Assembly (NCBI RefSeq): GCF_042453785.1
Contig: NC_091677.1
Coordinates: 28,397,501-28,461,500, forward strand
Source of the DNA: Malus domestica
Taxonomy: Eukaryota; Streptophyta; Magnoliopsida; Rosales; Rosaceae
Direction: 5' to 3'
Length of the DNA stretch: 64,000 nucleotides
Below the pieces are notes generated by a model. That model was not told the origin of the DNA. It did no database searches and was given only the letters and a program-made list of their open reading frames with translations. Positions 1,701-64,000 of this stretch are shown piece after piece; position 1 is the first letter of the stretch, and each line of letters starts with the position of its first letter. A program made the position numbers and the translations under genes.

Positions 1701-1940
1701 CAGTGGCGAAGCCACGTGAGGACGAGGAGTGGCGACCGCCCCTCCCCTCGCCGGAAAACACAGCTGAAGCCGAGGTTTCGCCCCTCCCCTCACCGGAAAA
1801 CCCAGCCCCTCCATCTCTGTTTTGGCACCGGTGAACTGGTTTTGCTGCTGCGTGCAGCAACACTGGTTCTTTTTTTTTCTTTTAAATTAATAAAAAAATT
1901 AAAATATGGCCCACATGTCCCAAAGTTAGCCTTTCAAAGT

Positions 1941-2140
1941 AGTGCCCACGTGAAACTTTCAGAAAAAAACCAAAAATATATATATGTATAATGTATTGGG
2001 GGGACCGCATGTCCCTCATTCCTTCACTTACTCATTTCAAATTAGTGCCCACGTGAAACTTTCAGAAAAAAACCAAAAAATATATATATGTATAATGTAT
2101 TGGGGGGACTGCATGTCCCTCATTCCTTCACTTAGTCAGT
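1941..2140 (+). repeat. Tandem duplication of about 100 bp in the hAT 5' arm
   Basis: Two adjacent near-identical blocks run from AGTGCCCACGTGAAACTTTC through a TATATATATG run and ATTGGGGGGACC to CTTCACTTA. The hAT arm at 17301-17757 carries an analogous duplication of a block starting ATTGGGGGGACCCCG. The 5' arm of this family therefore seems prone to tandem doubling. Confidence 0.8.
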
Positions 2141-2726
2141 CCGATGCTTTACCATTCCAAATTTCTCCCTTCCAAATCAGAGAGAGAGAGTGCAAAGCTT
2201 CTTCCAAAATCTCAGCTGAGCCTGCAGCAGCCAACGCCCAAGCCCAACCCCAACGGAACGGAAAATAAATCCCCATTGGCTGATTTATGTTGGCTTTTTG
2301 CTGCTAACACTAGCCACTCCAGCCGCTAAGCCGACTTCTAGCCTTCAATTTCAAAGGTAAATTTTTTAATTCCTAAATTTATAATCCCTAACCCTAATTA
2401 ATTATTTAATACGAATTTTGTTTAATTAGTATAGAATGATATGGTAATGCACTAATATGGTTATTGATTATTGATTATTGATATGATTCTATGATTATTG
2501 ATTGATATGAAATTATGAAATTATTTTTTAGGGTGAAAATTAAATTTTGAATTTTTGATTAGTTGTATTCATATGATTAGTTGAATGAATTTTTTATTTA
2601 TTTAATAATTTATATGCTTATTGGTATTGATTAATTGAATTGTTGGTTGGGTTATTATGCATATTAGTATAGACTATAGGATTAAGAGTCTAAGATTTTT
2701 TTTTCTTTCCATTTTACAGTTACGTA

Positions 2727-4042
2727 ATGGAACGGTACTATAAGAAACAATGCTTAAATCCTCCTTCAAACATTTCGGGTAGTCCTTCTCCTTCAAATAT
2801 TCCAAGTAGTCATCCTCCTCCTCCTTCAAATATAAGAAGTCCTCCTTTGAATATTCTGAGTAGTTCACAACAAAGTGAGCCCACTAAGTTGGATGAGATA
2901 TTGGCTAATCTTCATGCAGACCCTGGATATAGACGTCGAATGCTTGATTATCCACCTAATTATCGTGAAGCAATTCGTAGACACTATCTCCAAAATGATC
3001 CTTGTCAACCTAGAGACCACATTATGCCAAGAAAAGTTAGCAACAAAAGATGTTTTATCACTGGTTGGTTTGATAGGTTTAAGTGGTTGGAGTATAGTAT
3101 ATCAAAGGATGCTGCATTTTGTCGTTATTGCTATCTTTTCAAATGTGATTTCGATCAAATGGGTAGCACTGGAAATGATGTCTTCACCGAGAAAGGGTTT
3201 ACAAATTGGAGGAAAGGACCCGAAAATCTTCGAGCCCATGAGGGAGGTGTTGGAAGTCTTCATAATAAAGCTGTACAACAAGCTAGAGATTTGATGACAC
3301 AAAAACTGCAATCCTTGAGAGATGATGACTGCAATCCTTGAGAGATGATGACTTTGGGGACTTGCTTGATGATGTACAAAAGTTTTGTCAAGAGCATGAT
3401 ATTGTCGTTCCTAACATGGAGGATTTGCATTTTGTACCTGGAAAATCAAGGCGTAAAGCTCCAAGACTCACAAACTTCCATTACTATCGTGTGGACCTCT
3501 ATTTTCAAGTCCTTGATACACAATTAAAGGAATTGAATGATCGCTTCAATGAGGTAAACACCGAGTTGCTTCTTTGTATGGCATGTTTGAGTCCGGTGAA
3601 TAATTTTGCATCTTTTGACAAAGCAAAAATTGTTCGTCTAGCTCAACTTTATCCTCAAGATTTTGATCGTATGGACCTCATGAATCTTCCAATTCAACTT
3701 GACAATTACATTCACGATATGAAGATGCATAGTGAGTTTTCATCATTGAGAGGAATTGCTGATCTTGCAAAGGAGTTGGTGAAGACTGGGAGGTGTGCAA
3801 GCTACATATTAGTGTATAAGCTTCTTACATTGGCTTTGGTGTTACCGGTTGCAACCGCTTCGGTGGAGAGAGCTTTTTCTGCTATGAAGATTGTGAAAAC
3901 ACCATTGCGTAACAAAATGGGAGATCAATGGTTGAGTGATAGCATGCTTGTTTACATAGAGAGAGATGTATTTGCTTTTATTGATAATGAGCCTATTATG
4001 CGACGTTTTCATGGTATGAAACGTCGTCGGCAACAATTGTAA
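2727..4042 (+). pseudogene. hAT transposase remnant: N-terminal zinc finger and C-terminal dimerisation region, middle deleted
   Basis: The first open frame (2727-3341, 204 codons) has a Ser/Pro-rich start, then a block with RHYLQNDPCQPRDH, KRCFITGWFDRFKWLEYS and FCRYCYLF, typical of the TTF-type zinc finger of plant hAT transposases. The second (3338-4042, 234 codons) contains LPVATASVERAFSAMK, the hallmark of the hAT C-terminal dimerisation domain. The several hundred residues of DDE-type catalytic core expected between them are missing. A 23-bp tandem duplication at 3305-3350 lies at the junction and shifts the frame, so the halves cannot be read together. The product cannot be an active transposase. 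Whether the N-terminal part is still translated as a DNA-binding peptide is unknown. Confidence 0.88.
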
Positions 4043-4175
4043 TTTGTTTATGTTGATAAATTATGGAAGACATTACTATATAAAATGATTTGGTTGTTGC
4101 TATTCTTTTGAACCTTGCACTCTTTTAACTTCGCCCCTCCCCCCGTCAATTCCTGGCTTCGCCACTGAGCATGGA

Positions 4176-11748: not shown

Positions 11749-12871
11749 TCTGCCTTTACACTTGTTCTCAAATTGATATACAAGCACGGATGTCCATAGG
11801 AGCACAAAGATGTAATACATTGCCCAAAACACACGGAGGTGCCTTTTCACATTTTTCACACTTTTACATTCATTATTATGAATTTTTATTTATTCTAAAC
11901 TCCTGGAAACACATTGCCCAAAACACACTGTTCACAAGGGTTTCTAGGATTTTAAAAATCCAAACGACAATGTACCCATCTTCAAAGTGTATAGGATGCG
12001 GGGTCACGAGCATTTGCATATTTCTTCACATTTTTCATACTTGTGATTAATTATTATGAATTTTTTGTATTGTGCTTTGGTATTTTTAATATACTTTGGC
12101 ATTTTGAACGTGCATTGGAACTTTTTAATCTTACTTATTTGAGATTACTATGCCTCTTCTAGTAAAGTATTTTGGTAGTTTAAAATTATCACACTAATCT
12201 TTTCCTATCAGATTAAAATGCGTTACCCGTGGATAAACCTGTTAAGAACTCATCAGTGACTGGTGCCCAATTAGTTAACATTTTAACCCAAACTCATTAT
12301 TGTCATGTCGTTTCAAATCGGGTTATCTAATTGTGTAAGAAATTGTCAAGTCTATTATGGACTCTCTCGAAAGTGAGACTCCAGTTACTCTAACAAAAAA
12401 TTTTGCTTCATTTTTTGGTTTTTTGTAGAAGATTTTAAGCATTTACCAAATAAAATTTCGTTTTTCATATTTCAAATAAATAAAAACTAAACTAAAGAAG
12501 AAATAATGATTATCAAACCATCCTTAACTAAAATAAAAATCCAAGATGGCTGAGGATCCACGAGTACATTTCAGAACACAATGTGAACAAGTATATTACG
12601 CACACAAGGACAAAAGGTAAGCATCAGGTCCCAAATTAAATGAAAGGTCAATTTACTAATAATAATCTTACAGGTCTATATCATCATATTTTCTAAGGCA
12701 CGTACCACGCTGATCATTTTTTGGGGCACTGAAATTGCTATAAACGCCATTCTCTCTACCACCTTGAGTAGTATATAAATCGCAGAGCAAGTCTACCATT
12801 TCAGTATATCTGCTCATCATCATATCCTTTACCAAAATCCAGCTTGCTTCTACTACAATAGCTAGCTACCC
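11749..12871 (+). promoter_or_regulatory. Upstream block of protease A, opening with a scrap of KARI intron 7; TATA-like box at 12772-12780
   Basis: The first about 55 bp (TTCTCAAATTGATATACAAGC...AGATGTAA) resemble 59098-59150 in intron 7 of the intact KARI gene, which marks a duplication junction. The rest is non-coding and nearly identical, over the same 1123-bp length, to 33087-34209 upstream of protease C. TATATAAAT begins at 12772, exactly 100 bp before the ATG; the same spacing holds in all five copies. A CCATTTCAGTATATCTGCTCATCATCATATCC leader region follows. Confidence 0.75.
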
Positions 12872-14015
12872 ATGGAGATCCTAAACCTGCGGCTATGGAA
12901 GTATATGTGCTTCGGCTTGATCCTCATGTTGGGAGCTTGGTCTTCTCAAGCCACTTCTCGCAGTCTGCAAGATGCATCAATGTACGGGAGATACGAGCAA
13001 TGGTTGGCTCGTTATGGCCGCGTATATAATGACGTCGATGAGAAGGAAACTCGTTTCAAGATATTCAAGGAAAATGTGGCATTTATAGAATCTTCTAATA
13101 AGGATGCAAACAAACCTTACAAATTAAGTGTCAATCAATTTGCAGACCTTACAAATGAAGAGTTCAAAGCCTCAAGAAATGGATTCAAGGGCCATGAATG
13201 TTCCACGAAGACGACTTCTTTCAAATATAAAAATGTGACTGCTGCTTTGCCAGCAACAATGGACTGGAGAACGAAAGGAGCTGTAACCCCCGTTAAGGAC
13301 CAAGGCCAATGTGGTAAGTACATAAACGTCTAGCTTCCTGCCATTAATTTAGAGAGACACCATATATATTCATCTTTAATATATTCCTAATCTAACTACT
13401 TTTGATTCCAATCGAAATACAGGATGTTGTTGGGCTTTTTCAGCAGTTGCCGCCACCGAAGGTGTTACACAGCTTACAACTGGTAGATTGATCTCTTTGT
13501 CTGAGCAAGAGCTCGTTGATTGTGACACCGCTGGTGAAGACCAAGGTTGTGAGGGTGGCTTAATGGACGATGCGTTTCAGTTCATCCAACAAAATCACGG
13601 TATTAGCACAGAAACTAATTACCCCTACAACGGTGTTGATGGTACATGTAACACCAAGAAGGAAGCCATCATTGCAGCCAAGATAACTGGCTTTGAGGAT
13701 GTGCCGGCAAATAGTGAAAAGGCCCTTCTAACCGCTGTTGCTCATCAACCTGTTTCCGTTGCCATTGATGCTAGCGGTTCCGACTTCCAATTCTATTCAA
13801 GTGGTGTCTTCACTGGAACTTGTGGAACGAGTCTAGACCATGGTGTTACCGCTGTTGGATATGGCGTGAGTGAGGATGGGACTAAGTATTGGCTAGTGAA
13901 GAACTCATGGGGTGCAGAATGGGGCGAAGCTGGGTACATAAGAATGCAAAGAGATGTTGCTGCAGCTGAAGGACTTTGTGGGATTGCTATGTCTGCCTCT
14001 TACCCCACAGCTTAG
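12872..14015 (+). CDS. Copy A: SAG12-like papain-family cysteine protease (intact)
   Basis: The gene has two exons: 12872-13313 and 13423-14015, with a GTAAGT donor and an ACAG acceptor. The joined frame is 344 aa, close to the 346 aa of Arabidopsis SAG12. In order it has a hydrophobic signal peptide (about residues 1-25), an I29 prodomain with an ERFNIN-like pattern and NQFADLT, then the mature protease from about TMDWR. Catalytic residues are Gln144 (DQGQCG), Cys150 (GCCWAF), His287 (LDHGV) and Asn308 (KNSWG). The six papain-type disulfide cysteines are present. There is no KDEL or granulin tail. By family it is a secretory, vacuole-directed protease made as a zymogen and typical of senescence or nutrient remobilisation; that role is inferred. 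Exon 1 encodes the same protein as copy C. Confidence 0.93.
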
Positions 14016-14335
14016 TTAATTAAATCAATGCCTACTAGCTATATGCCTTGTAGGTAGTCTGATATGTGTCAACCTGTATGTGTAAAATATTTATAAGATA
14101 ATCAAGATAATTGCTGGGCATTTATCATCTAAATTTATTAGACTTGTTTTCTTGGTCATCAGGTGTCCAAGAATTCATGATCACACACTATTAGATTTGA
14201 TATGAAAGATTAAAAACCAAAATCACACATTTATTCTCCATCTTAGTCACCCAATGACCAAAAGAACCTATGGTCCAAGTTTGCATTGGCCTCCCACTAA
14301 TCAAAAGATTTGCAATCAAACGTCGATATATTCAG

Positions 14336-15300
14336 GCAGCTATTGGGCTTTTGTAGCAGCGAGAGCCGTTGAAGGAATTTCTCGGCTTACAAATGGTCAA
14401 TTAAACTTTGTCCGAGCAACAAGTGGTTGATTGTGATACCCGCGGTGAAGACCTAGGTTGTGGTGGTGGCTACCTTGACGGCGCCTTTGAGTTCATCAAT
14501 ACTGTGTGATTAGCTCCGCAAGGACCGCAACGCCGGTGTCAAACGCTACATGGAGCACCGAAGGCCCTCATACAGCCAATATAACTGGCTAAGAAGACGT
14601 GCCGATAAGCAATGAGAAGGCCCTGTAAGACGCATGTTGAGTTGTCAATTATTATGAATCAAATTACTTAAAAGGCAAATAACTTGATCTTCAAGATATT
14701 TGACTTTTAACGTAATTCAATATTGGTTAGTAAGAATCATGGAACCAAAATATATTAGTTGACTAATTGAAACCCTAATTAAGTAAGACATATTGTACAT
14801 TCCTTGGTGGGACACCATTAAGATTAAATGGTGATTTGGTGTATTCCTCCAATTACTGTAACAGGCGAGATTGGAGGAACCCTAACCACTATAATAAGGG
14901 TGTTCATGCTTTCACAACGCACACATTCGATTCCGAACAAACCCTATTATTGATGGAACACTTCTGCTTGTTGAAAGTGGAAGACTCTTTTGTCATCCAC
15001 AAGAGTCATGTTTTCCGTATGCCAAAGATGAGTAAATTGTAATTAATTTATTGTAATTTTGGTTTATCAAATATGTAATCCTAATATCTTGTTGTTTTTC
15101 TTATGATTTCAGAAATTTCTTACATATCCCTCTCAAGGCTTGCTAATCTACCTATTTTTGTTTGCATTGATGTCGGAGGAGAAGATTTCATGTCAGTCAT
15201 ATAAAAGTTGTCATTAAAGGGGTATGTGAACTATCCATCAACCAATGTGTTTCCGCTATTGGTCAATGGAAAAGTGTCGATGGAGAACATTCACTGCAAA
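14336..15300 (+). pseudogene. Protease remnant downstream of A (relic R1), catalytic Cys replaced
   Basis: After an acceptor-like TTCAG, the frame reads GSYWAFVAARAVEG, where functional proteases have GSCWAF. The active-site TGT is TAT here, so Cys is Tyr. It continues with recognisable but broken SEQQVVDCDTRGEDLGCGGGYLDGAFEFI-like sequence up to about 14624. There the text GGCCCTGTAAGAC starts a stretch of about 490 bp that looks like an intron ending at ATTTCAG (15112). A second weak piece (NLPVSV.IDVGGEDF-like) follows. Exon 1 is absent and several stops and frameshifts are present. The recurrent 60-70-codon open frame at 14836-15042 falls in the intron-like part and is not believed. Confidence 0.8.
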
Positions 15301-15369
15301 GTATACCACAAGTGGTGTTTTCTCAATGAAATAAGAACATGTGCAACTCTGGTTCAAGTGGTGTTACCG

Positions 15370-16491
<1,122 letters not shown>

Positions 16492-17300
16492 ATGGAGATC
16501 CTAAACCTGCAGCTATGGAAGTATAAGTGCTTGGGCTTGATCCTCGTGTTGGGAGCTTGGTCTTCTCAAGCCACTTCTCGCAGTCTGCAAGATGCATCAA
16601 TGTACGGGAGATACGAGCAATGGTTGGCTCGTTATGGCCGCGTACATAACGACATCAATGAGAAGGAAACTCGTTTCAAGATATTCAAGGAAAATGTGGC
16701 GTTTATAGAATTTTCTAATAAAGATGCAAACAAACCTTACAAATTAAGTGTCAACCAATTTGCTGACCTTACAAATGAAGAGTTCAAAGCCACAAGAAAT
16801 GGATTCAAGGGCCATGAGTGTTCCACAAAGACTTCTTTCAAATATGAAAATGTGACCGTACCATTACCAGCAACAATGGATTGGAGAAAGAAAGGAGCTG
16901 TAACCCCCGTTAAGGACCAAGGCCAGTGCGGTAAGTACATAAACGTCTTTAGTTTCTTGTCATTAATTTAGAGAGACACTGTATATACATACATACATAC
17001 ATACATATATATATATATATTCATCTTCTATTTTTTCCTTAATCTAACTACTTTTGATTCCAATCAAAATACAGGATGTTGTTGGGCTTTTTCAGCAGTG
17101 GCCGCCACCGAAGGAATTACACAGCTTACAACTGGTAGATTGATCTCTTTGTCTGAGCAAGAGCTCGTTGATTGTGACAACGCTGGTGAAGACCAAGGTT
17201 GTGAGGGTGGCTTAATGGACGATGCGTTTCAGTTCATCCAACAAAATCACGGGATTAGCACAGAAACTAATTATTCCTACAACGGTGTTGATGGTACATG

Positions 17301-17610
17301 CACTGGCGAAGCCACGTGAGGGCGAGGAGTGGCGGTCGCCACTCCCCTCACCGGAAAACTGGACTGGATATCTGGGTCAGCCCCTCCCCTTGCTCGCCGG
17401 AAAACCCATTGGTTCAGTGCTCCCTGCTTCGGTGATGTCTGGTGCGCGCAGCAGACTGAGTGTCTGCGTTTTAATTTTTTTTTTTAAAGTAATTGAAACG
17501 GCACCGTTTCGTAGGTTTCAAAATAAAAAAATATATATTGGGGGGACCCCGTGTCCCCCTTTCACTCTTAATCCCTCTAAGACCTCAGTGCAGGACACGC
17601 CACCTCTTGT

Positions 17611-17645
<35 letters not shown>

Positions 17646-17724
17646 TATATATTGGGGGGACCCCGTGTCCCCCTTTCACTCTTAATCCCTCTAAGACCTC
17701 AGTGCAGGACACGCCACCTCTTGT

Positions 17725-17757
<33 letters not shown>
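17301..17757 (+). repeat. Outer left arm of the macrotransposon, with doubled block and TA microsatellites
   Basis: The first about 310 bp are nearly identical to 20379-20690. After them, a block of about 90 bp beginning ATTGGGGGGACCCCGTGTCC and ending ACGCCACCTCTTGTC is present twice (about 17537-17610 and 17651-17727). Each copy is followed by a (TA)n run. The inner arm carries the block once. The TA runs probably grew after the doubling. Confidence 0.85.
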
Positions 17758-17761
<4 letters not shown>

Positions 17762-18094
17762 TTTTTACATTGAATATATCGAGACAAAATTCAGGACAAA
17801 ATTAAAATGAATATGCAAAATATGAAAAAATATGTGCAGAAATAATTTCCCTCGTGTAAAGGCGAAGATGTAGCAAGGGAAGAGGTAGAAATTGTGCATC
17901 TATGGGTAGAGCACAAAACACTTTCTTTTCGTTTTTTTTTTTTTTTTTTTTTTTTTGAATCACAAAATACTTCTATTACAAGGATATTAATTACAAGTTC
18001 TTTGAGTATTCTTTTCGGATAGAGTATTTTAGTGCTGAATGGCAATTGGGATTATTTCAAGGACATATTATGAATGTTTTGTGTATGCATGCAG

Positions 18095-19602
18095 ATGATT
18101 CAAGGAAAACAGAACACCTGCTCGCACTTGATGGAGCAAAAGAAAGGCTTCAGTTGTTCAAAGCAAATTTATTAGAAGAAGGATCTTTCGACCCTGCAGT
18201 CGATGGATGTGAAGGTGTTTTTCATACAGCATCGCCTGTACAACTTTCAGCCACTGATCCGCAGGTACTTCATCCTTTTACTTACATATATAGTTGAACT
18301 TTGATCAGATTGGAAACCCTATCAAATTACGAGGACCAAGTGTGCTTTCGCCATGAAATTCTTTTTAAGTTTCTAGGTTACCCAATGGTACGGACTCTTT
18401 CTCTCTTTTCAGTATACATATTCTTTATGTAAACACTGAATGATTCTTTCGTTCTGCGTCTCAGACAGAACTAACTGACCCTGCAGTGAAGGGAACACTC
18501 AATGTTCTAAAATCGTGCGTAAAATTTCCTACTGTCAAGAGAGTGATTTTAACATCTTCCATGGCGGCAGTCATGGTGAATGGAAGACCTTTGAACCCTG
18601 ATGTGGTAATTGACGAAACATGGTATTCGGATCAAGCAATTTGTGAGCAGTTGAAGGTACGTTTTGTGTGTTACCATACATACGTATTATTTTCTTCCAA
18701 GTTTTCACCTTTTATTCTTTAATGAATTTGTGAAATTTCAATGTCTAATTATGTGCAGGAATGGTATTTTCTTTCAAAAACTTTAGCTGAGGAGGCTGCT
18801 TGGAAATTTTCCAAAGAAAATGGGATTGACTTGGTTACAATCAATCCATCATATGTGATTGGTCCGCTCCTACAGCCAACTCTTAATCTCTCTGTGGAGA
18901 TGATTCTGAATCTCAAAAATGGTACACTTCCACAACCGGATTATTTCTCTCTTTCTTGGTTAGGGCAGAACATGATTGTTTGTAGATGCTCGCAGGCCGT
19001 TTCCTAGCAAATTAGATGATTCATGTGATGCAAGTTTCAAGTATTTCTTGCGATTCAAGTTTTAAATGTTTCGTTTCTATGCAGATATCCCAAGTATAAT
19101 CAGTTCAAATTATCCATCTAGTGATGTCAGAGATGTTGCCTTTGCTCATGTTCAAGCATTTGAAGTCCCTTCGGCTAGTGGCAGATATTGTTTCGTTGGC
19201 CATGTTACACCCATGTCCAAGGCTCTGAGTATTTTACATGAACTCCATCCCACTTTTTTCCCACCTGAAAAGTAAGTTTTCATTTTCAAAATCCCACAAA
19301 TTTGTATTTTGTTTCTTCAAGTTTATGTGGATCGATCTTCAAAAGATTGCTGTCGATCAAATTCCCAGTTTTCGTATTCATTAAGTACGCCATTGATCAA
19401 AGCTCACCGAATGAGGTAAATTTTTAAGGAATATCTGTTTCGTGCATTGTTTGGCAGATGGGATGATGACAAACCTTGTGAACCAGGCTATCAAATATCA
19501 AAGGAAAAAGCAAAAAGTTTGGGAGTTAATTTTCTTCCATTGGAAGTAAGTCTTAGGGACACTATTGAAAGCCTCAAAGAGAAGGGCTTCCTCAAGCTTT
19601 GA
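18095..19602 (+). pseudogene. Captured exons 2-6 of a cinnamoyl-CoA reductase / phenylacetaldehyde reductase-like gene
   Basis: Five exons with correct GT-AG borders: 18095-18264, 18465-18656, 18759-18921, 19085-19271 and 19458-19602 (stop TGA). Exon phases agree at every join, giving about 285 uninterrupted codons. Family motifs are present: [17 protein letters not shown] at the start, VFHTASPV, the Ser of ILTSSMAAV, the YFLSK catalytic Tyr-Lys pair, [29 protein letters not shown] and SGRYC. These are NADPH-dependent extended short-chain reductases of the CCR/DFR group. Exon 1, with the start codon and the GxxGxxG nucleotide-binding motif, is absent; the sequence begins at an intron-1 acceptor (GCAG, 18091-18094). 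It should therefore not fold a complete Rossmann domain. Lack of any stop or frameshift suggests recent capture. No upstream ATG-containing exon was found in the element. Confidence 0.88.
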
Positions 19603-19784
19603 ATTCAAGTGTTTGTTTCTGCACAATCTCTCAAGAGACGGTGAACATTACATTGTTCATGTTCAGATTTTCTAAATTCATCCGCAATGGCGCACGAATG
19701 TTCAGAAGTTGCTATCAACTCTTGGTGCCTGAATTTAAGAAAGGTTGTTTGAATATGTTTTTTCCTTCTTTATACAAGAGATAT

Positions 19785-19900
19785 TGGGGGAAGGAAGAAT
19801 CGAACTCGGGAGTCGGGACCTTCCAGGGGTGAAAACTCTGTATCAGAGCAACATACCCCTTGTTTGAAGAAGTTTACCAATTGAGCTACGTACCGTTTGG
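19785..19900 (-). repeat. tRNA-derived SINE-like head inside the captured DNA
   Basis: On the minus strand TAGCTCAATTGGTAAAC (19888-19872) matches a Pol III A box. CGAGTTCGATTCTT (19808-19795) matches a B box about 65-80 bp downstream, the spacing found in tRNA-derived SINEs with an enlarged spacer. The tail of the element was not delimited. It is not a real tRNA gene, because no anticodon arm or acceptor pairing is evident. Confidence 0.5.
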
Positions 19901-20378
19901 TTTTATAATAAAAATTATTAGAACCTTTCAATATTTTTTCGGTTATTTCAATAATATATGGCCTGATTGCATATGCATAATTATGATTTAGATTCAGACG
20001 GCAGATTCAGAATTTGAACTTTGGAGATCCTAATGTTGGAGGTCCAAGTTTTTTAGATAGAAATATAGCGCGAAATGCGCAACAAATTTCAGTTTATTCA
20101 TGGAGCACTTAGTGGGCTTGTTGTTGTCAATCAAACCATATTTTGCATATGTCAACAAATATCGACATTTACCAAAGCAATCTCATAAGTACCATCGAGG
20201 GCATTTGTTGAATGTTGTCGACACAACTTGTTGATTGTTACTGTGAATATACCTAACAAGCATTACATCGCACTTGGTTGGCAAAAAGGGAACCTATACC
20301 AAATATTCGGAGGATCTCCATAAGACCTTCACATGCTTCTTTCCCAGCCTTGAGTGGTCTTGAGACCACCTTCGTCCC

Positions 20379-20690
20379 CACTGGCGAAGCCACGTGAGGG
20401 CGAGGAGTGGCGGTCGCCACTCCCCTCACCGGAAAACTGGACTGGATATCTGGGTCAGCCCCTCCCCTTGCTCGCCGGAAAACCCATTGGTTCAGTGCTC
20501 CCTGCTTCGGTGATGTCTGGTGCGCGCAGCAGACTGAGTGTCTGCGTTTTAATTTTTTTTTTTAAAGTAATTGAAACGGCACCGTTTCGTAGGTTTCAAA
20601 ATAAAAAAATATATATTGGGGGGACCCCGTGTCCCCCTTTCACTCTTAATCCCTCTAAGACCTCAGTGCAGGACACGCCACCTTTTGTTT
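20379..20690 (+). repeat. Inner left arm of the macrotransposon (second hAT left end)
   Basis: This arm has the same CACTGGCGAAGCC terminus and following 300 bp as 17301-17610, differing mainly by single bases near its end (CCTTTTGTTTT for CCTCTTGTCTT). It directly adjoins the hAT body that runs to 21579, so it is probably the original left end of the smaller element. Confidence 0.88.
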
Positions 20691-21363
20691 TTCAACCTTT
20701 CTGCTAGAGAGCACAGCAAAGCTACCCCCAAAGTCCCATCAGCAACAAAAAGAAATATTTTTTAATTCGAATTGAATTGTCAACCTTCTTCCAGGCTCCA
20801 GCCACTCTACACTTCTCCAGCAGATGAGCCATCGGCTTCAGCCTTCTAAGGTAGTTTTATTTAATTCTCAAATTTACAATCCTTAACCTTAATTAATTAT
20901 TTAATACACATTTTGTTTGATTGGCATAGAATTTTATGGTAATGCACTAATATGATTATTGATTATTGATCTGATTCTATGATTTTTTTATGTGAAATTA
21001 AAATTTGAATTCTTGATTATTTCATATGATTAGTTGAATTGAATATTTATTTATTGAATAATTTGTATGCTATTGGTATTGCTTAATTGAATTGTTGGTT
21101 GGATTAATTATGATGCATATTAGTATAGTCTACTCTAGGATTAAGAGTGTAAGAATTTTTTTTCCTCTCCATTTTACAGTTACGTAAAGGAACAATATTA
21201 TAAAAAGTAATGCTTAAATCCTCCTTCAAACATTTGAGGTAGTCCTTCTCCTTCAAATATTCAAAGTGGTCCTCCTCCTTCTCCTTCAAATATTCCAAGA
21301 AGTCATCCTTCAAGTATTCCGAGTAGTTCACAACAAAGTGAGGTTACTGAGATAGATGAAATT

Positions 21364-21954
21364 TTGGCTAATCTTCCTGAAGATCATGGACATAGACGTC
21401 GAATGCTTGATTATCTACCTAATTATCGTGAAGCAATTCGTAGACACTATCTCCAAAATGATCATTGTCAACCTAGAGACCACATCATGCCAAAAAGAGT
21501 TAGCAACAAAAGATGTTTTATCATCGGTTGGTTTGATAAGTTTCGCCCCTCCCCCAGTCAATTCCTGGCTTCGCCACTGGGTACATGTAACACCAAGAAG
21601 GAAGCCATCATTGCAGCCAAGATAACTGGCTTTGAGGATGTGCCGGCAAATAGTGAAAAGGCCCTTCTAACCGCTGTTGCTCATCAACCTGTTTCCGTTG
21701 CCATCGATGCTAGCGGTTCCGACTTCCAATTCTATTCAAGGGGTGTCTTCACTGGAACTTGTGGAACGAGTCTAGACCATGGTGTTACCGCTGTTGGATA
21801 TGGCGTGAGTGAGGATGGGACTAAGTATTGGCTAGTGAAGAACTCATGGGGTGCAGAATGGGGCGAAGCTGGGTACATAAGAATGCAAAGAGAAGTTGCT
21901 GCAGCTGAAGGACTTTGTGGGATTGCTATGTCTGCCTCTTACCCCACAGCTTAG
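21364..21954 (+). pseudogene. Chimeric open frame: hAT transposase N-terminus fused to protease B C-terminus
   Basis: A single 196-codon frame starts in the truncated transposase ([20 protein letters not shown], then [12 protein letters not shown]), crosses the right inverted repeat and continues in the correct frame into protease exon 2 from CNTKKEA to the native stop. It contains the protease His (LDHGV) and Asn (KNSWG) but no catalytic Cys, so it cannot be a peptidase. The upstream hAT body also has traces of the Ser/Pro-rich leader, broken by stops. Whether the fusion is expressed is unknown; it may be a chance in-frame join. Confidence 0.75.
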
Positions 21955-32656: not shown

Positions 32657-33086
32657 CGGGAAAAAAAAAATTCCACTATGTGGCAAAGCCAACATGGGGT
32701 CATTGGTTGCTCATAACCCCAATACCTTTAAAATCATAATGCATACTTATTTGTATATTTGCATATGACCCCAAAACATAATTGCAGCAAACTGAAAGAA
32801 TAAGTCAAAAACACTAAATTACAAATTGCTACTTCTTTTGTGCAACCCTTGTACAGTTATTTGTAGATTTTCTTCTTTCTTTCTTTTGTCTTTCTTCTCC
32901 TATTTCTTGTATGCGACCTTACGGTATACAACAAGTATTTGATAAAAAACCTCACTCGACATTCCTTGGCAAAAAAGCGATAAACTACGACATATTTCGG
33001 CAGATACCCACCAGAAGCTCAACGAAATGATCCAATGAAGTCTTTTTGGCAACAATTATGACTCAATTATTATAAAATCCTGGCTC
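32657..33086. other. Unassigned sequence within the former KARI intron 7
   Basis: About 430 bp with no counterpart in the intact KARI intron 7, between the exon-8 scar and the intron-7 scrap at 33087. It includes a CTTTCTTTCTTTTGTC tract. Its right edge TCCTGGCTCTGCC resembles a transposon end, but no matching left end was found. Confidence 0.4.
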
Positions 33087-34209
33087 TGCCTTTACACTTA
33101 TTCTCAAATTGATATACAAGCACGGATGTGCATAGGAACACATAGATGTAATACATTGCCCAAAACACACGGATGTGCCTTTTCACATTTTTCACACTTT
33201 TACATTTATTATTATGATTTTTTATATATTCTAAACTCCTAGAAACACATTGCCCAAAACACACTGTTCACAAGGGTTTCTAGGATTTTAAAAATCCAAA
33301 CGACAATGTACCTATCGTCAAAGTGTAGAGGATGTGGGGTCACGAGCATTTGCATATTTCTTCACATTTTTCATACTTGTGATTAATTATTACGAATTTT
33401 AATATTGTGCTTTGGTATTTTTAATATACTTTGGCATTTTTAACGTGCATTGGAACTTTTTAATCTTACTTATGTGAGATTAAATACTATGCCTCTTCTA
33501 GTAAAGTATTTTGGTAGTTTAAAATTATCAAACTAATATTTTCCTATCAGATTAAAATGGGTTATCCGTGGATAAACCTGTTAAGAACCCATCAGTGACC
33601 GGTGCCCAATTAGTTACATGTTAACCCAAACTCATTATTGTCATGTCGTTTCGAATCGGGTTATCTAATTGTGTAAGAAATTGTCAAGTCTATTATGGAC
33701 TATCTCGAAAGTGAGACTCCAGTTACTCTCACAAAAACATTTACTTCATTTTTTGGTTTTTTGTAGAAGATTTTAAGCATTTACCAAATAAAATTTCGTT
33801 TTTCATATTTCAAATAAATAAAAACTAAACTAAAGAAGAAATAATGATTATCAAACCATCCTTAACTAAAATAAAAATCCAAGATGGCTGAGGATCCACG
33901 AGTACATTTCAGAACACAATGTGAACAAGTATATTACGCACACAAGGACAAAAGGTAAGCATCAGGTCCCAAATTAAATGAAAGGTCAATTTACTAATAA
34001 TAATCTTACAGGTCTATATCATCATATTTTCTAAGGCACGTACCACGCTGATCATTTTTTGGGGCACTGAAATTGCTATAAACGCCATTCTCTCTACCAC
34101 CTTGAGTAGTATATAAATTGCAGAGCAAGTCTACCATTTCAGTATATCTGCTCATCATCATATCCTTTACCAAAATCCAGCTTGCTTCTACTACAATAGC
34201 TAGCTACCC
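33087..34209 (+). promoter_or_regulatory. Upstream block of protease C; TATA-like box at 34110-34118
   Basis: It opens with the same KARI intron-7 scrap as 11749 and is near-identical to the upstream block of A over 1123 bp. TATATAAAT begins 100 bp before the ATG. The 35-bp segment AATTGCTATAAACGCCATTC... just upstream of the TATA box is present, unlike in copy D. Confidence 0.75.
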
Positions 34210-35353
34210 ATGGAGATCCTAAACCTGCGGCTATGGAAGTATATGTGCTTCGGCTTGATCCTCATGTTGGGAGCTTGGTCTTCTCAAGCCACTTCTCGCA
34301 GTCTGCAAGATGCATCAATGTACGGGAGATACGAGCAATGGTTGGCTCGTTATGGCCGCGTATATAATGACGTCGATGAGAAGGAAACTCGTTTCAAGAT
34401 ATTCAAGGAAAATGTGGCATTTATAGAATCTTCTAATAAGGATGCAAACAAACCTTACAAATTAAGTGTCAATCAATTTGCAGACCTTACAAATGAAGAG
34501 TTCAAAGCCTCAAGAAATGGATTCAAGGGCCATGAATGTTCCACGAAGACGACTTCTTTCAAATATAAAAATGTGACTGCTGCTTTGCCAGCAACAATGG
34601 ACTGGAGAACGAAAGGAGCTGTAACCCCCGTTAAGGACCAAGGCCAATGTGGTAAGTACATAAACGTCTAGCTTCCTGCCATTAATTTAGAGAGACACCA
34701 TATATATTCATCTTTAATATATTCCTAATCTAACTACTTTTGATTCCAATCGAAATACAGGATGTTGTTGGGCTTTTTCAGCAGTTGCCGCCACCGAAGG
34801 TGTTACACAGCTTACAACTGGTAGATTGATCTCTTTGTCTGAGCAAGAGCTCGTTGATTGTGACACCGCTGGTGAAGACCAAGGTTGTGAGGGTGGCTTA
34901 ATGGACGATGCGTTTCAGTTCATCCAACAAAATCACGGTATTAGCACAGAAACTAATTACCCCTACAACGGTGTTGATGGTACATGTAACACCAAGAAGG
35001 AAGCCATCATTGCAGCCAAGATAACTGGCTTTGAGGATGTGCCGGCAAATAGTGAAAAGGCCCTTCTAACCGCTGTTGCTCATCAACCTGTTTCCGTTGC
35101 TATCGATGCTAGCGGTTCCGACTTCCAATTCTATTCAAGTGGTGTCTTCACCGGAACTTGTGGAACGAGTCTTGACCATGGTGTTACCGCTGTTGGATAT
35201 GGCGTGAGTGAGGATGGGACTAAGTATTGGCTAGTGAAGAACTCATGGGGTACAGAATGGGGCGAAACTGGGTATATAAGAATGCAAAGAGATGTTGCTG
35301 CATCTGAAGGACTTTGTGGGATTGCTATGTCTGCCTCTTACCCCACAGCTTAG
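34210..35353 (+). CDS. Copy C: SAG12-like papain-family cysteine protease (intact)
   Basis: Exons 34210-34651 and 34761-35353 give 344 aa with the same architecture as copy A: signal peptide, I29 prodomain ([26 protein letters not shown]) and a mature domain with Gln144, Cys150, His287 and Asn308. Exon 1 encodes exactly the same residues as A. Exon 2 differs from A at [12 protein letters not shown] ([13 protein letters not shown]) and VAASEG (A: VAAAEG). Silent sites in the His region (CACCGGAACT, AGTCTTGACC) match copy E rather than A, which points to gene conversion or a mosaic origin. Splice sites, start and stop are intact. The predicted role is vacuolar proteolysis, by family. Confidence 0.93.
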
Positions 35354-35673
35354 TTAATAAAATCAATGCCTACTAGCTATATGCCTTGTAGGTAGTCTGA
35401 TATGTATCAACCTGTATGTGTAAAATATTTATAAGATAATTATGATAATTGCTTGGCATTTCTCATCTAAATTTATTAGACTCGCTTTCTTGGTCATCAG
35501 GTGTCCAAGAATTCATGATCACGCACTATTAGATTTGATATGAAAGATTAAAAACCAAAATCACACATTTATTCTCCATCTTAGTCACCCGATGAACAAA
35601 AGAACCTATGGTCCAAGTTCGCATTGGCCTCCCACTAATCAAAAGATTTGCAATCAAACATCTATATATTCAG

Positions 35674-36570
35674 GCAGCTATTGGGATTTTGCAGCAGCGA
35701 GAGCCGTAGAGGGAATTACTCGGCTACAAATGGTCAATTAAACTTTGTCTGAGCAACAAGTGGTTGATTGTGATACCCGCGGTGAAGACCTAGGTCGTGG
35801 TGGTGCCTACCTTGACGGCGCCGTTGAGTTCATCAATCAAAACCGTGTGACTCCGCAAGGACCGCAACGCCGGTGTTTGACGGTACATGGAGCACCGAAG
35901 GCCCTCATACAGCCAATATAACTGGCTATGAAGACGTGCCGATAAGCAATGAGAAGGCCAGTAATTATTATGAATCAAATTACTTAAAAGGCAAATAACT
36001 TGATCTTCAAGAAATTTGACTTTTAACGTAATTCAATATTGGTTAGTAAGAATCATGGAACCAAGATATATTAGTTGACTAATTGAAACCCTAATTAGGT
36101 AAGACACATTGTAAATGCTTTGGTGGGACACCATTAAGATTAAATGGTGATTTGGTGTATTCCTCCAATTACTATAACCGGCGAGATTGGAGGAACCCTA
36201 ATCACTATATTAAGGGTGTCCCTACTTTCACAACACACACATTCGATTTCGTGCAAACCCTATTATTGCTAAAACACTTCCGCTTATTGAAAGTAGAAGA
36301 CTCTTTCTGCAAGAGTCATGTCTTCCGTATGTCAAAGATAAGTAAATTGTAATTAATTTATTGTACTTTTGGTTTATCAAATCCGTAATCCTAATGTCTT
36401 GTTTTTTTTCTTATGATTTCAGAAATTTCTTACAGATCCTTCTCAAGGCTTGCTAATCTACCTATTTCAGTTTTCATTGACGTCGAAGAAGAAGATTTCA
36501 TGTCAGTCCTATAACAGTGGTCATTAAAGGGGTATGTGGACTATCCACCGACCAATGTGTTTCCACTATT
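35674..36570 (+). pseudogene. Protease remnant downstream of C (relic R3), catalytic Cys replaced
   Basis: It has the same layout as R1. GSYWDFAAARAVEG carries the Cys-to-Tyr change, and broken QQVVDCDTRGED-like and INQNR-like text runs to about 35958. An intron-like part ending ATTTCAG (36421) and a short PVS.FIDVEEEDF-like piece follow. Small deletions relative to R1, such as loss of CTGTAAGACGCATGTTGAGTTGTC at 35958, show independent decay. Confidence 0.78.
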
Positions 36571-36774
36571 AGTCAAGGGATAGGTGTTGATGGAGAACAT
36601 ACATGGATAAAGTATACTGCAAGTGGTGTTTTCTCAATGAAATAAGAACATGTGCAACTCTGGCGCAAGTGGTGTTTCCGCTTTTAGTTGCTCTGACGCA
36701 ACTCTAGTCACACAAAGTATGCATCAGCAGTCACTAAAATGTCAACTGTAGGTCTGAGTTCAGCGCATACTTTG

Positions 36775-41220: not shown

Positions 41221-44200
41221 CACTACTACAATATTAGCTTTAGGTGGCGGATGATGGTGGCGGATATTAAAAAATCATGTCGGATAAATTATATCCGACA
41301 CATCATTTAATTACTGGCGGATATTAGAAAAATCCTATCGGTTATATCCGACATAAATTTATGGCGGATATCAAGAAACTACTGGCGGATATTTACTGGC
41401 GGAATTTTTGAATCTTTTTTTAATATTTTTTTACATATCCTAGCAGTTTTTACGTTAATAGTGGCGGTTATAAGAAATTGACTATTTTATTATTTTACTT
41501 TATGACGGTTATTATTTTAGTATTCTGGCGGTTATAACCGACATAGATGAAAATTTTATTATTTTAAAATGTTATATTGATTAAAAATAAATAAATAAAC
41601 ACATATTTTAAATTTTTTTTTTCACTCATGGCCCTAAAGTCTAATGAACCCAATTCTCACAAGTCATAAATTTTCTGAGAGAATAATGACAACAGACTAC
41701 AATCTAAAGCTCTATCATTTTTGTAATAAGGATTATGCTCCCTCATAGGCAAGCAACAAGATACAAAGAAATTTAAACAATTTTTTCCAATGCGTCACAA
41801 TGCACATTGTCTGGCACACACACATGAACATCTGATGTACTTTATCATGTCTGATTTTATTATTTTAAAATGTTATATTGATTAAAAATAAATAAAAACA
41901 TGTTTTAAATATTATATTTTTTGCAATTTTTTACACATGCTATCTCATAGTATATACAAACATATTTGACGAATGCATATCCTATCAAATTGATAGATTT
42001 AACAAACATTTAAGAGTTAATGTTATGCTTCCATTATTTATAAAATAAGATTTATCCACTAGTGTGAATATTTTAAATTGAAGATTGAATTCATTCATTG
42101 CATTCTTAAAGGATCGAGGAGTGTAGCTGCAAAAAATCATCAAAATCGGAGCTAAAATAACCGTTAAATTGTGATTTTTCGTTTATAACCGTCGAAAACT
42201 TTTGTTTTGTTACCTAATCTCTGAACGTTTGTTTTTTGTGATTTTTTACGTATGTGATCTCGGAGTGTTTACAACGTATGTGATCTCGGAGTGTTTACAA
42301 ACAAGTTTGACGGATAGATCATTGAAAAAAGTTTCGTAGAATGTGTATTGCGTCAAAATGGTAGATTAAATAAACACTTAAGAGTTAATGTTATACTTCC
42401 ATTAAGTATAAAATAAAATTTTGTGGTATCCACTAGTGTAAATATTTTAAATTGAAGATCAAATTCATTCATTACATTCTTATAGGGTCGAGGATTGTAG
42501 CTGTAAAAAATCATTAAAATCGGAGCTAAAATAACCGTTAAATTGTGATTTTTCGTTTATAACCGTTGAAAACTTTTATTTTGTTACCTAATCTCTTAAT
42601 TTTTTTTTTTTGTGATTTTTTACGTATGCGATCTCGGAGTGTGTACGTTTGACGGTTGGATCGTTGAAAAACGCTTCGTAGAATGCGTATCGCATCAAAA
42701 CGGTAGATTAAACAAACACTTAGAGTTAATGTTATACTTACATTAAGTATAAAATAAGATTTATCCACTAGTGCAAATATTTTAAATTGAAGATCGAATT
42801 CGTTCAATGCATTCTTATAGGGTCGAGGATTGTAGCTGTAAAAAATCATCAAAATCGGAGTTAAAGTAACCGTTAAATTGTGATTTTTCGTTTATAACCG
42901 TTGAAAACTTTTGTTTTGTTACCTAATCTCTTAATGTTTGTTTTTTTTTTTTTTACATATGCGATCTCGGAGTGTGTACAAACAAGTTTGACGGTTAGAT
43001 CATTGAAAAACGCTTCGTAGAATGCGTATCGCATCAAAACGGTAGATTAAACAAACACTTAGAGTTAATGTTATACTTCCATTAAGTATAAAATAAGATT
43101 TATCCACTAGTGTAAATATTTTAAATTGAAGATCGAATTCGTTCAATGCATTCTTATAGGGTCGAGGAGTGTTTCCGTAAAAAATCATCAAAATCGGAGC
43201 TAAAGTAACCGTTAAATTGTGATTTTTCGTTTATAACCGTTGAAAACTTTTGTTTTGTTACCTAATCTCTTAATGTTTTTTTTTGTGATTTTTTACGTAT
43301 ACGATCTCGGAGTGTGTACAAACAAGTTTGACGGTTGGATAGTTGAAAAACGCTTCGTAGAATGCGTATCGCATCAAAACGGTAGATTAAACAAACACTT
43401 AGAGTTAATGTTATACTTCCATTAAGTATAAAATAAGATTTATCCACTAGTGTAAATATTTTAAATTGAAGATCAAATTCGTTCAATGCATTCTTATAGG
43501 GTCGAGGAGTGTTGCTGTAAAAAATCATCAAAATCAGAGCTAAAGTAACCGTTAAATTGTGAATTTTCGTTTATAACCGTTGAAAACTTTTGTTTTATTA
43601 CCTAATCTCTTAATGTTTGTTTTTTGTGATTTTTTACGTATGCGATCTCGGAGTGTGTACAAACAAGTTTGATGGTTGGATCGTTGAAAAACACTTCGTA
43701 GAATGCGTATCCCAACAAAACGGTAGATTAAACAAACACTTAAGAGTTAATGTTATACTTCCATTAAGTATAAGTGTAAATATTTTAAATTGAATATCAA
43801 ATTTATTCATTAGACAATATTTATTTATGTTTTTCAAGTATTGATTAGACAATATTTAGTTTGTGTGATGACATTTTCATTGTACAATTTTTTTTTTGTT
43901 TCTTTATCGCATATTTTACATGCATTATTCTCTATTAAACCAAAAGTGTAAAAATTATCTATTAAACCAAACAATTATTTATTTAATTTTTAAAAACATA
44001 TTCTATTTAAATACATATTATTTATTTATTTATTAAACCAAACAATTATTATTTTATTTTTTAAAATTGTAACAAAATTTGGGGGGGGAATTTAAAATTT
44101 TGAGGGAAAATTTTAAAATTTTCGGAGGGAAGTTTGCTGCCATTTTTTTTTTCCGTCGGTTATAACCGACAGTAATAAAATTTTTCTGTTAGTTTTTATT

Positions 44201-61907: not shown

Positions 61908-63617
61908 TGATGACTGGGATTCAGAGGAAAATGAACAGGGAGAGTGAGGGTTCGGTGATTAAGCACGTTTTTATACTCGGTTGGGATGTGGCTAACGTGC
62001 GCCGGATGCTTAAATAAGCTAAACTTTCAGGAAGTTCTAAAGACTTTTTTTTTTAGTAAAAATAGTTTTTAAAATTAGCTGAACTTTTTACTTTAGTTTT
62101 TAAAATTTGAAATTGAAAATGTTTCATGAACTTGTCCGCCATTAATTGTTTTGATCTCTTCATTAAATGAAGATAAAATGATAAAATTCAGGGTACTTTT
62201 GTAAAAAAAAATTGGCCTATTGTTTATAAAATTCAGGATACTTTTGTAATTTTCATCCTTGTTTAATAGAAATTTTTCATAAAATAACCAAAATGATTGA
62301 TGGTGTCAAATCAAGAGACTACTTCTATTGATTTCAAATCTTAATGACCAAAGTGATGAGTTATGTCAATGTTATGGACCATTTTAATTAAAAATCTAAG
62401 TTTTAATGTAACGACAGCGTTAGTAGGTTAGATAACTAGTGTAAGTTTTACTTCTATATGAACAGCGTTTGGTTGACAATAAAATGAATTTGAGAATGAT
62501 AAACACCATTTTTATGTTGTAAAAGTAGTACGAATGCCTCGTGTAAAACTAGTGGAAAGGCCTGCATGAAGCGTTGGAAGATGATGATTGGAATTCACAT
62601 GCTTCATGTGAAGGCTTTGTGAATAATGTTAGTTTCCTTTCATTGAGACGTGTGCTATAATTTATGTGCACTGTAGTGTAAGATGAAAGACCTATATAAA
62701 AAGGTGAATTTGAGTCATTTTATACACCGAATACTAACTTCATTTTCCTTGTGAACGACAAGCGTAAAACAGAAAGCATAAAGAAATTATACAAGTTTAT
62801 TTCACTTCTTTTCTTTTGTATTTATCTTCCTTATCCAACAAAAGTAAAGAAAACAAGATAGTTTGTTGCATGATATACTTCCAATCAGATTTGTAGATCT
62901 TGTTTTGAAGAATACGTGAATGATTCATATACAGCATCTTGTTCAACCAATTGATATGTTTTCACAAATAACGAAACCCATCCGCCCATCTTTGATTTCA
63001 TTTTCCCTTCTTGTGGACGAAGACAAGTTTGTTTTCCCTTCTTGTGTCAATTAAAAATGAAAAATAAAAGAAAATGATTTGTCCTTTTCCCCACAATATC
63101 AAACTTAAGAAAGAAAGAAAAAACAATATTTAAAGATACAGGATTGTTTATTCATCAATTCCTTTATGTGAACCAAACGGGCCTTAAATTCGAAATATGA
63201 TTCCATCTCCTTCCAGTTTTCTTTCCATTTCTTCCCTTCTTATTTGAATAATGTGGGCTTTAAAATTGCTTTGGTATTCTTACAGTCAAGAAATGAAAGG
63301 CTTTGTGTGGTGTGAGCTAAAGGCCCTCCAAGGATGAATCACAAGCTATAAGTTTCTTAGATAAGGAATGATTGTCATTTTTCATTGGAATGGATATGCC
63401 TTTACATAATCGCAAGTTTGAGCTTAAGGATAATTCATTATGGCACGTGTGACACTCTTTAAGTGGCGGGTTGGAATCTTACATTATCATGTCTATTTTG
63501 CCAATAACATTAACTTTAGGAGATTTTATGAGGAACATCAATTAAGAGTCTCGTTTAGGAGAGCTGATAGTTAAAAATAAAATGATGGGTGTACTACAAG
63601 TTTAAAATGACGTATGA
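61908..63617. other. KARI 5' flank and intergenic DNA, no gene seen
   Basis: The first about 100 bp should contain the KARI 5' UTR and promoter (minus strand). From 62040 to 62420 there is AT-rich repeat-like DNA with two similar pieces (AAAATTCAGG(G/A)TACTTTTGTAA at about 62186 and 62228). The rest to 63617 is AT-rich, without coding signals or recognisable elements. Confidence 0.5.
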
Positions 63618-64000
63618 TGTTTGTACCATACTTGACCAATCCCGAAACTACCGAGCACCGGCCAACACTATACTGTCAAGGACCCAGAAGAGTTCCCCTC
63701 CGACCAGGAGGCCAATCACTACTCGACACGTGTCAAGATTAGAAGCCAATCAGAGCGCAGCACGTGTCGACATCAAGAACCAATCATAACATGACACATG
63801 TCAATGTGACAAAGCTACAAGTTTTTCTATAAATAGGGGTCATTCCCCCACAATATTGCCTAATGCCATTTTGTGTTAAATCATTCACAAGAACTCACTA
63901 AATTGAGAGCTTGATCCTTTGTACTTGTGTAAACCCTTCACTACTAATAAGAACTCCTCTACTCCGTGGACGTAGCCAATCTGGGTGAACCACGTACATC
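63618..64000 (+). mobile_element. LTR of an outward-facing retrotransposon, cut by the window edge
   Basis: It begins TGTTTGTACCATACTTGACC, and its whole 383 bp is related to the complement of the left-edge LTR (103-618), including repeated ACACGTGTC words and CTCCGTGGACGTAGCC. The final about 130 bp of LTR would lie beyond the window. The base changes are numerous, so these are separate insertions of one family and not the two LTRs of one element. The interior would extend to the right. Confidence 0.75.

Follow-up and report, generated by a model that had tools for sequence, protein, structure and literature searches.

How did five exons of a reductase gene come to lie, with their introns, inside a transposable element that itself interrupts a protease gene? 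The question is raised by a stretch of 64,000 nucleotides of the apple (Malus domestica) genome, C17:28397501-28461500, which we call the window and in which positions are counted unless a contig is named; same-genome searches covered the 651-Mb assembly of 19 contigs. Within exon 2 of a papain-like protease gene, protease B, there is a unit of 4,279 bp (17301-21579) that has hAT ends and an 8-bp duplication around it. From left to right it consists of a 305-base hAT left end, donor DNA from intron 1 of a CCR/DFR-like gene onwards and a complete 1.2-kb hAT element. We consider it probable that this is a hAT composite, in which part of the left end of one element was duplicated upstream of that element's flank and the whole was then moved as a macrotransposon. 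Its parts are as follows.

17293..17300, + strand: left copy of the target site duplication (TSD), GGTACATG, flush with the left end
17301..17605, + strand: outer left end, the first 305 bases of the hAT element, with 20379-20683 as its identical counterpart
17523..17750, + strand: two copies of a 114-bp unit across the joint between hAT and donor intron, the unit holding bases of both
17719..19912, + strand: DNA from the donor locus on contig C7 (intron 1, exons 2-6 and 3' flank), 98% identical to C7:1814286-1811735(-)
19998..20378, + strand: portion of a dispersed repeat (start approximate) found 3' of the donor gene, with the inner element near the repeat's end
20371..20378, + strand: TTCGTCCC, putative left-hand target duplication of the inner element
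20379..21579, + strand: complete 1,201-bp non-autonomous hAT element, from inner left end to right end, with full-length matches on C6 and C16
21580..21587, + strand: right copy of the TSD, GGTACATG, flush with the right end

It is close to certain that the DNA was delivered into protease B as one hAT unit. The unit starts with CACTGGCGAAGCCA and finishes with TGGCTTCGCCACTG, and GGTACATG stands directly outside both termini, as the initial annotation had noted when it placed a single 8-bp duplication around all 4,279 bp; the chance of an exact flush 8-mer is 1.5e-5 per pair of places. The terminal inverted repeats characteristic of a hAT element are present (CACTGGCGAAGCCA and CAGTGGCGAAGCCA, 13 of 14 positions matching). 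Paired outer ends, host DNA enclosed between them and a TSD outside are the hallmarks of a macrotransposon, and the unit has all three. The target gene and an empty site in one of its paralogues are located at these positions.

16492..16930, + strand: exon 1 of protease B, with the I29 propeptide and the start of Peptidase_C1
17075..17300, + strand: 5' part of exon 2, from the joined-flank alignment and the open frame
21588..21954, + strand: 3' part of exon 2, from the joined-flank alignment, Pfam and the open frame
13641..13648, + strand: empty target site in a paralogue; the others are at 34979, 47587 and 56278

When the two flanks are joined and one copy of the duplication is removed, the resulting 393 bases align without gaps and over their full length to four paralogues (at 13449, 34787, 47395 and 56086; 96.7-98.0% identity), each with a single GGTACATG at the insertion point; the ten matches listed in this search were those four, the two flanks themselves and four diverged fragments (70-74%). 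In silico excision had earlier been seen to give back an exon 2 of 593 bases, and 17075-17300 and 21588-21954 do rejoin to that length and, with exon 1, give an open protease frame of 343 codons, the insert being the sole frame-breaking change seen in the gene. With the insert in place and normal splicing, the reading frame of protease B is predicted to run for 227 codons, of which the last five lie in the hAT end. One TSD outside the unit and four empty sites uphold the earlier proposal that the DNA was mobilised by its outer left end and its right end, and with it the comparison to macrotransposons. The window as a whole contains five protease genes and diverged protease fragments near 14371, 22299, 35709 and 52903, together with a segmental duplication of 3.7 kb (11749-15439 and 33085-36774, 94%) that has one protease gene in each copy.

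The cargo of the unit is part of a host gene, and its exons are these.

18095..18264, + strand: captured CCR/DFR-like exon 2
18465..18656, + strand: captured CCR/DFR-like exon 3
18759..18921, + strand: captured CCR/DFR-like exon 4
19085..19271, + strand: captured CCR/DFR-like exon 5
19458..19602, + strand: captured CCR/DFR-like exon 6, with the stop codon

Together they amount to 857 nt; their introns have GT/AG borders and the frame is open through to the stop. The solved structures nearest to the encoded protein are reductases of the CCR/DFR type (PDB 4qtz, E 4.2e-110) and its Pfam matches are 3Beta_HSD, Epimerase and NAD_binding_4; it has no counterpart of the first 37 residues of the 4qtz chain, which form the start of the nucleotide-binding fold. 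The borders, the frame and the 4qtz match agree with the initial annotation, which had described exons 2-6 of a CCR-like gene with introns and in phase. Its argument against a retro-copy is also sound: such an origin is excluded because the introns are kept and are 98% like those of the donor. The donor gene that it had proposed to look for was found on C7, with 27 mismatches in 2,185 sites (4 and 23 in two blocks). The capture begins within intron 1 of this gene, and the donor flank in the composite comes to about 2.66 kb when the extra 114-bp copy is discounted. Because an exon 1 frame lies upstream and exons 2-6 are free of insertions and deletions, the C7 gene is apparently complete; a more distant relative of the cargo is present on C2 (82-87%). 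As a non-autonomous element that holds part of a host gene whose source lies elsewhere, the unit also has the properties of a Pack-hAT (Pack-TYPE) element. Exon 1 of the protease finishes in phase 1 and captured exon 2 requires phase 1, a match that chance would give in 1 case out of 3; skipping of exon 2 of the protease is a possible route to an open protease-reductase fusion of 431 amino acids, as read from the predicted frames.

The inner element has matches at C6:31029719-31030951 (96%) and C16:18233292-18234532 (95%), and with it these are the three full-length copies among the 40 of 597 candidates scored. The 8-bp TSD expected of a hAT element is seen in four relatives as well as in the unit: CACTTGGC at the C6 copy, TGCATACA at the C16 copy, CTAGTAGG at another element on C16 and AGCATGGA at a longer relative in the window.

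1701..4167, + strand: longer relative of the element, 2,467 bp, with TSD AGCATGGA

The transposase-like coding region of this relative is split into two overlapping frames, 2727-3341 and 3338-4042; the second has the hAT transposase domain (PF05699, Dimer_Tnp_hAT, 1.4e-7), and no Pfam match was obtained for the first. The inner body (20379-21579) matches it at 83% and is an internally deleted relative of it. The longer relative carries a 104-bp tandem duplication of its own (1932-2138). In the unit, the joint at 20378/20379 is flush with base 1 of the element and lies inside the dispersed repeat. Nine of the ten copies of this repeat that were fetched align to the insertion point and continue briefly with similar sequence and no element, and the alignment of the tenth ended at query position 446 of 479. 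At the C7 site TTCGTTCC-ATTG occurs once and is uninterrupted. These repeat copies without the element and the uninterrupted C7 site indicate that the inner element probably arrived at the repeat by transposition, on a haplotype outside this assembly.

The initial annotation had seen a second left end at 20379, in front of an internally deleted hAT body, and this is borne out by the identity of 17301-17605 and 20379-20683 over all 305 bases. It had taken the outer end for a distant one that transposase used together with the normal right end. The use with the right end stands; a separate element as its source does not emerge from the comparison, which points to a 305-base copy of the same element or of a recent twin. 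The outer and inner ends have four private substitutions in common that set them apart from the C6 and C16 copies, and both have a single TGGTTCAG unit, compared with two in C6 and three in C16. A search with the terminal 21-mer gave 130 places in the genome at no more than one mismatch; the exact 21-mer, which begins CACTGG with its C at position 3, occurs at only four, namely both ends, C6 and C16. Because the private variants are shared and the exact 21-mer is so restricted, the two ends have a common origin, the outer end apparently having been copied from the same element or both ends having come from one recent parent. An independent family member as the source of the outer end was excluded on the same two grounds.

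Past base 305 (17605) the intron of the donor takes over. At the joint itself hAT and intron have a single base in common, alongside a T-rich stretch of loose similarity; this homology of about 1 bp is within the 0-4 bp of the end-joined Composite Insertions of maize. As an exact 22-mer the joint is present solely in the unit, where the 114-bp duplication makes it occur twice. Since the duplicated 114 bp include the joint and donor bases, the tandem duplication at 17523-17750 is, by its content, later than the joint; an old family trait, comparable to the 104-bp duplication of 1701-4167, was set aside because of those donor bases. Both joints, sought as exact patterns, are confined to the unit. 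A search for other copies of the composite had been proposed, and no second copy was seen among the 40 of 290 candidates scored in this genome. The arrangement that the initial annotation had named as contrary to its reading, the CCR exons with the inner left end and no outer end, was likewise not found as an exact pattern.

A further hAT element with a doubled left end lies at C16:8477600-8479417. Its outer piece of 243 bases is separated from the inner left end by two bases, its TSD (CTAGTAGG) flanks the outer left end on one side and the right end on the other, and its doubled joint was found nowhere else in the genome at up to 3 mismatches. Because this element also has a copied outer end with a TSD outside, outer left ends made from a copied fragment are not a one-off, and both TSDs mark the outer ends as ones that were used. 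The C16 pair came from a separate genome search and was not among the 100 left-end places listed out of the 130, in which one-mismatch places extend only into C13; among those 100 there were one same-strand pair of left ends within 100 kb, the window's own, and two opposite-strand pairs.

A composite made from one element is favoured by the TSD and empty sites, the C7 donor, the identical ends with their private variants and restricted 21-mer, the joint with about 1 bp of homology, the inner joint flush inside its repeat, the lack of a hAT match at the C7 and C2 loci, the C16 case and the counterparts in maize. A hAT had been expected 3' of the donor gene; searches with the inner element and with the longer relative 1701-4167 gave no hAT match in the 9.9-kb C7 and C2 loci, neither of which is the donor haplotype. 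Nor were two linked elements seen at the assembled C7 allele, which is not that of the direct donor. The DNA probably came from another haplotype than the assembled one, because the C7 allele lacks a hAT on its 3' side. On an unassembled donor haplotype, a hAT element would have inserted in the repeat 3' of the CCR/DFR-like gene. A piece of its own left end would then have been copied and joined upstream into intron 1. One possible way is that of the maize Composite Insertions, in which the element transposes while the DNA is being replicated and re-replicated segments are end-joined; the other is a tandem duplication through microhomology, with one breakpoint in the element and the other in intron 1, which after macrotransposition would give the same product. 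With the copied end, exons 2-6 would have acquired a left border that can transpose, and transposase acting in trans would have carried the whole unit into protease B.

In maize, PMC4270019 describes Composite Insertions as products of alternative transposition in replication, in which segments are re-replicated from two forks and come to have usable ends outside, and PMC9910405 reports a composite insertion in which 1,391 bp of 5' Ac sequence meet, at a 4-bp overlap, 9,022 bp of fractured Ac (fAc) and flank. Like the Ac/fAc insertions described there, the apple unit has an element end joined to flank and element, with a usable end on either side and a TSD of 8 bp. The maize insertions that these papers describe derive from two reverse-ended elements and were recovered close to the parent locus, no more than a few generations later, whereas in apple one element was seemingly enough and the product is on another contig than the donor. 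The compound Ds-l4-483 of maize B73, as presented in PMC3260210, consists of a complete TSD-flanked element, trapped DNA and a truncated duplicate with a perfect terminus and a further TSD copy. It resembles the apple unit in having a complete element at one border, a truncated duplicate with a perfect end at the other and host DNA between, transcribed in the case of Ds-l4-483. It belongs to a different hAT family, however, and in apple the left flank of the inner element is TTCGTCCC and not the outer GGTACATG; its cargo is given as a long terminal repeat (LTR) retrotransposon fragment and transcribed sequence, whereas the apple unit has five spliceable exons whose donor has been located and whose donor site is empty. 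The Pack-hATs surveyed in PMC8903248 are, like the apple unit, non-autonomous hAT elements with a genic fragment, inserted in another gene; beyond this, the complete element inside the apple unit and its doubled left end point to how it was put together. In Arabidopsis, PMC12312487 reports likely alternative transposition of VANDAL21 elements, which are not hAT elements.

Several observations weigh against a one-element origin. The donor haplotype bearing the hAT is absent from the assembly and the formation step is not directly observed. Intron 2 of the C7 gene is longer by some 357 bases; 187 cargo bases (19913-20099) are missing 3' of that gene; and the last 279 captured bases (20100-20378) are only 85% identical to C7:1811735-1811461. 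Because of these three differences C7 is, on the alignments, an allele or close relative of the donor and not its direct parent. Substitutions in 20100-20378 comprise 34 transitions and 4 transversions, as against 15 and 12 in the gene part; this bias might suit methylated repeat DNA, and the difference from C7 is not fully explained by it. The intron 2 insertion (about C7:1813308-1813665) begins GGCTGGTTTGG, is missing from the captured copy and may be a small transposon, to judge from its look. As for the ends, the outer and inner left ends of the doubled C16 element agree at 228 of 243 positions (94%), and a local hop over a short distance, or gene conversion, could also have made the two ends in the window identical. 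The maize Composite Insertions described in these papers began from two reverse-ended elements and not one, and of the six alleles whose sequences are given in PMC4270019 three were end-joined (0-4 bp of homology) and three were closed by homologous recombination.

The age of the composite can be gauged from branch changes rooted on C2, a rooting that left 5 of the 23 non-coding differences without a branch. Of the 1,328 non-coding sites, 9 carry a change placed on the composite branch and 9 one placed on the C7 branch; for the 857 exon sites the counts are 1 and 3, respectively. If the composite were as old as the split from C7, its left ends would be expected to differ at 4.1-6.4 positions, depending on whether none, half or all of the 5 unassigned changes are given to the composite, and they differ at 0 (P 0.016-0.0016). 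If a single clock holds and gene conversion has played no part, these small numbers suggest that the split came before the composite; gene conversion could also account for the identity of the ends. At the non-coding rate, 5.8-7.4 exon changes would be expected on the cargo branch, where there is 1 (P 0.02-0.005), a tryptophan codon in place of the cysteine codon of C7 and C2; for the 3 exon changes of the C7 branch, P is 0.17-0.06. Small as these numbers are, the zero left-end differences and the single exon change suggest that for most of its branch the DNA was a working allele, and that it turned cargo late.

Two successive insertions, which we think rather unlikely, would lead to a similar structure. 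An element would have made a local hop into intron 1 and been cut back to its first 305 bases, with loss of some flank as well, and the left end surviving in this fractured element would have paired with the right end downstream. This is classical macrotransposition, or the neighbouring-elements model of Pack-CACTA; in the Ac/Ds macrotransposition of Huang and Dooner the outer ends of linked elements are said to move the intervening DNA, a process that reportedly requires two donor elements, and two were not seen at the assembled C7 allele. The architecture of the unit is compatible with such a history, PMC13317346 describes neighbouring elements with complementary terminal deletions, and the cited maize papers apply the term macrotransposon to composites with Ac and fractured-Ac ends. 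However, because the two ends are identical while C6 and C16 differ at the four shared sites and in repeat number, a recent local hop and a deletion would be needed. The C7 and C2 loci, which do not represent the donor haplotype, showed no remnant of a first insertion, and the outer piece on C16, two bases from its inner left end, would be hard to produce by two insertions.

Gap repair with template switching strikes us as very improbable. Synthesis after excision would have copied 305 bases, switched to the C7 gene and re-entered a complete element, leaving a short-homology joint like the one at 17605, and replication errors in break repair are cited in PMC3260210 as a suggested source of capture. 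The return joint, however, falls exactly at base 1 of the element, in a repeat placed alike 3' of the C7 gene, and this fits insertion by transposase and not a random switch. An assembly artefact or chance collage is scarcely credible, for although proteases form a tandem array here, with long stretches almost identical to one another, and the evidence is assembled sequence, the TSD is exact, the donor is on another contig, the joints are unique as exact patterns and a later 114-bp duplication runs across one of them.

The window also contains a tandem array of a 340-bp unit in about 4.4 copies (42274-43773) and, at its ends, an inverted repeat of about 400 bases (232-632 and 63604-64000, 82%).

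Gene pick-up by hAT elements is poorly documented and the phenomenon is known mainly from maize. In the maize survey of 2011 (PMC3260210) gene capture by hAT elements is reported and termed rare, and the review of 2026 (PMC13317346) still allows for an undiscovered capture mechanism for DNA transposons. Among the titles and opening lines of abstracts in the open-licence literature we found no natural hAT composite in apple and no macrotransposon gene capture outside maize. Maize precedents exist, and the apple unit is an unusually well-resolved further natural example: a single genome, that of a plant outside the grasses, shows the target, the donor locus, the two joints and the parent element. 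We propose tentatively, and with some doubt, that a lone non-autonomous hAT element can mobilise a neighbouring gene without a partner by copying about 250-300 bases of its left end upstream of the flank, that this has happened at least twice here (with 2.66 kb of gene cargo on C17 and two bases on C16) and forms a recurrent route of capture, and that the in-frame fusion of 431 amino acids is a possible outcome. The shared private variants trace the outer border of the unit to its inner element, and a one-element route to gene capture may be tested in other haplotypes.

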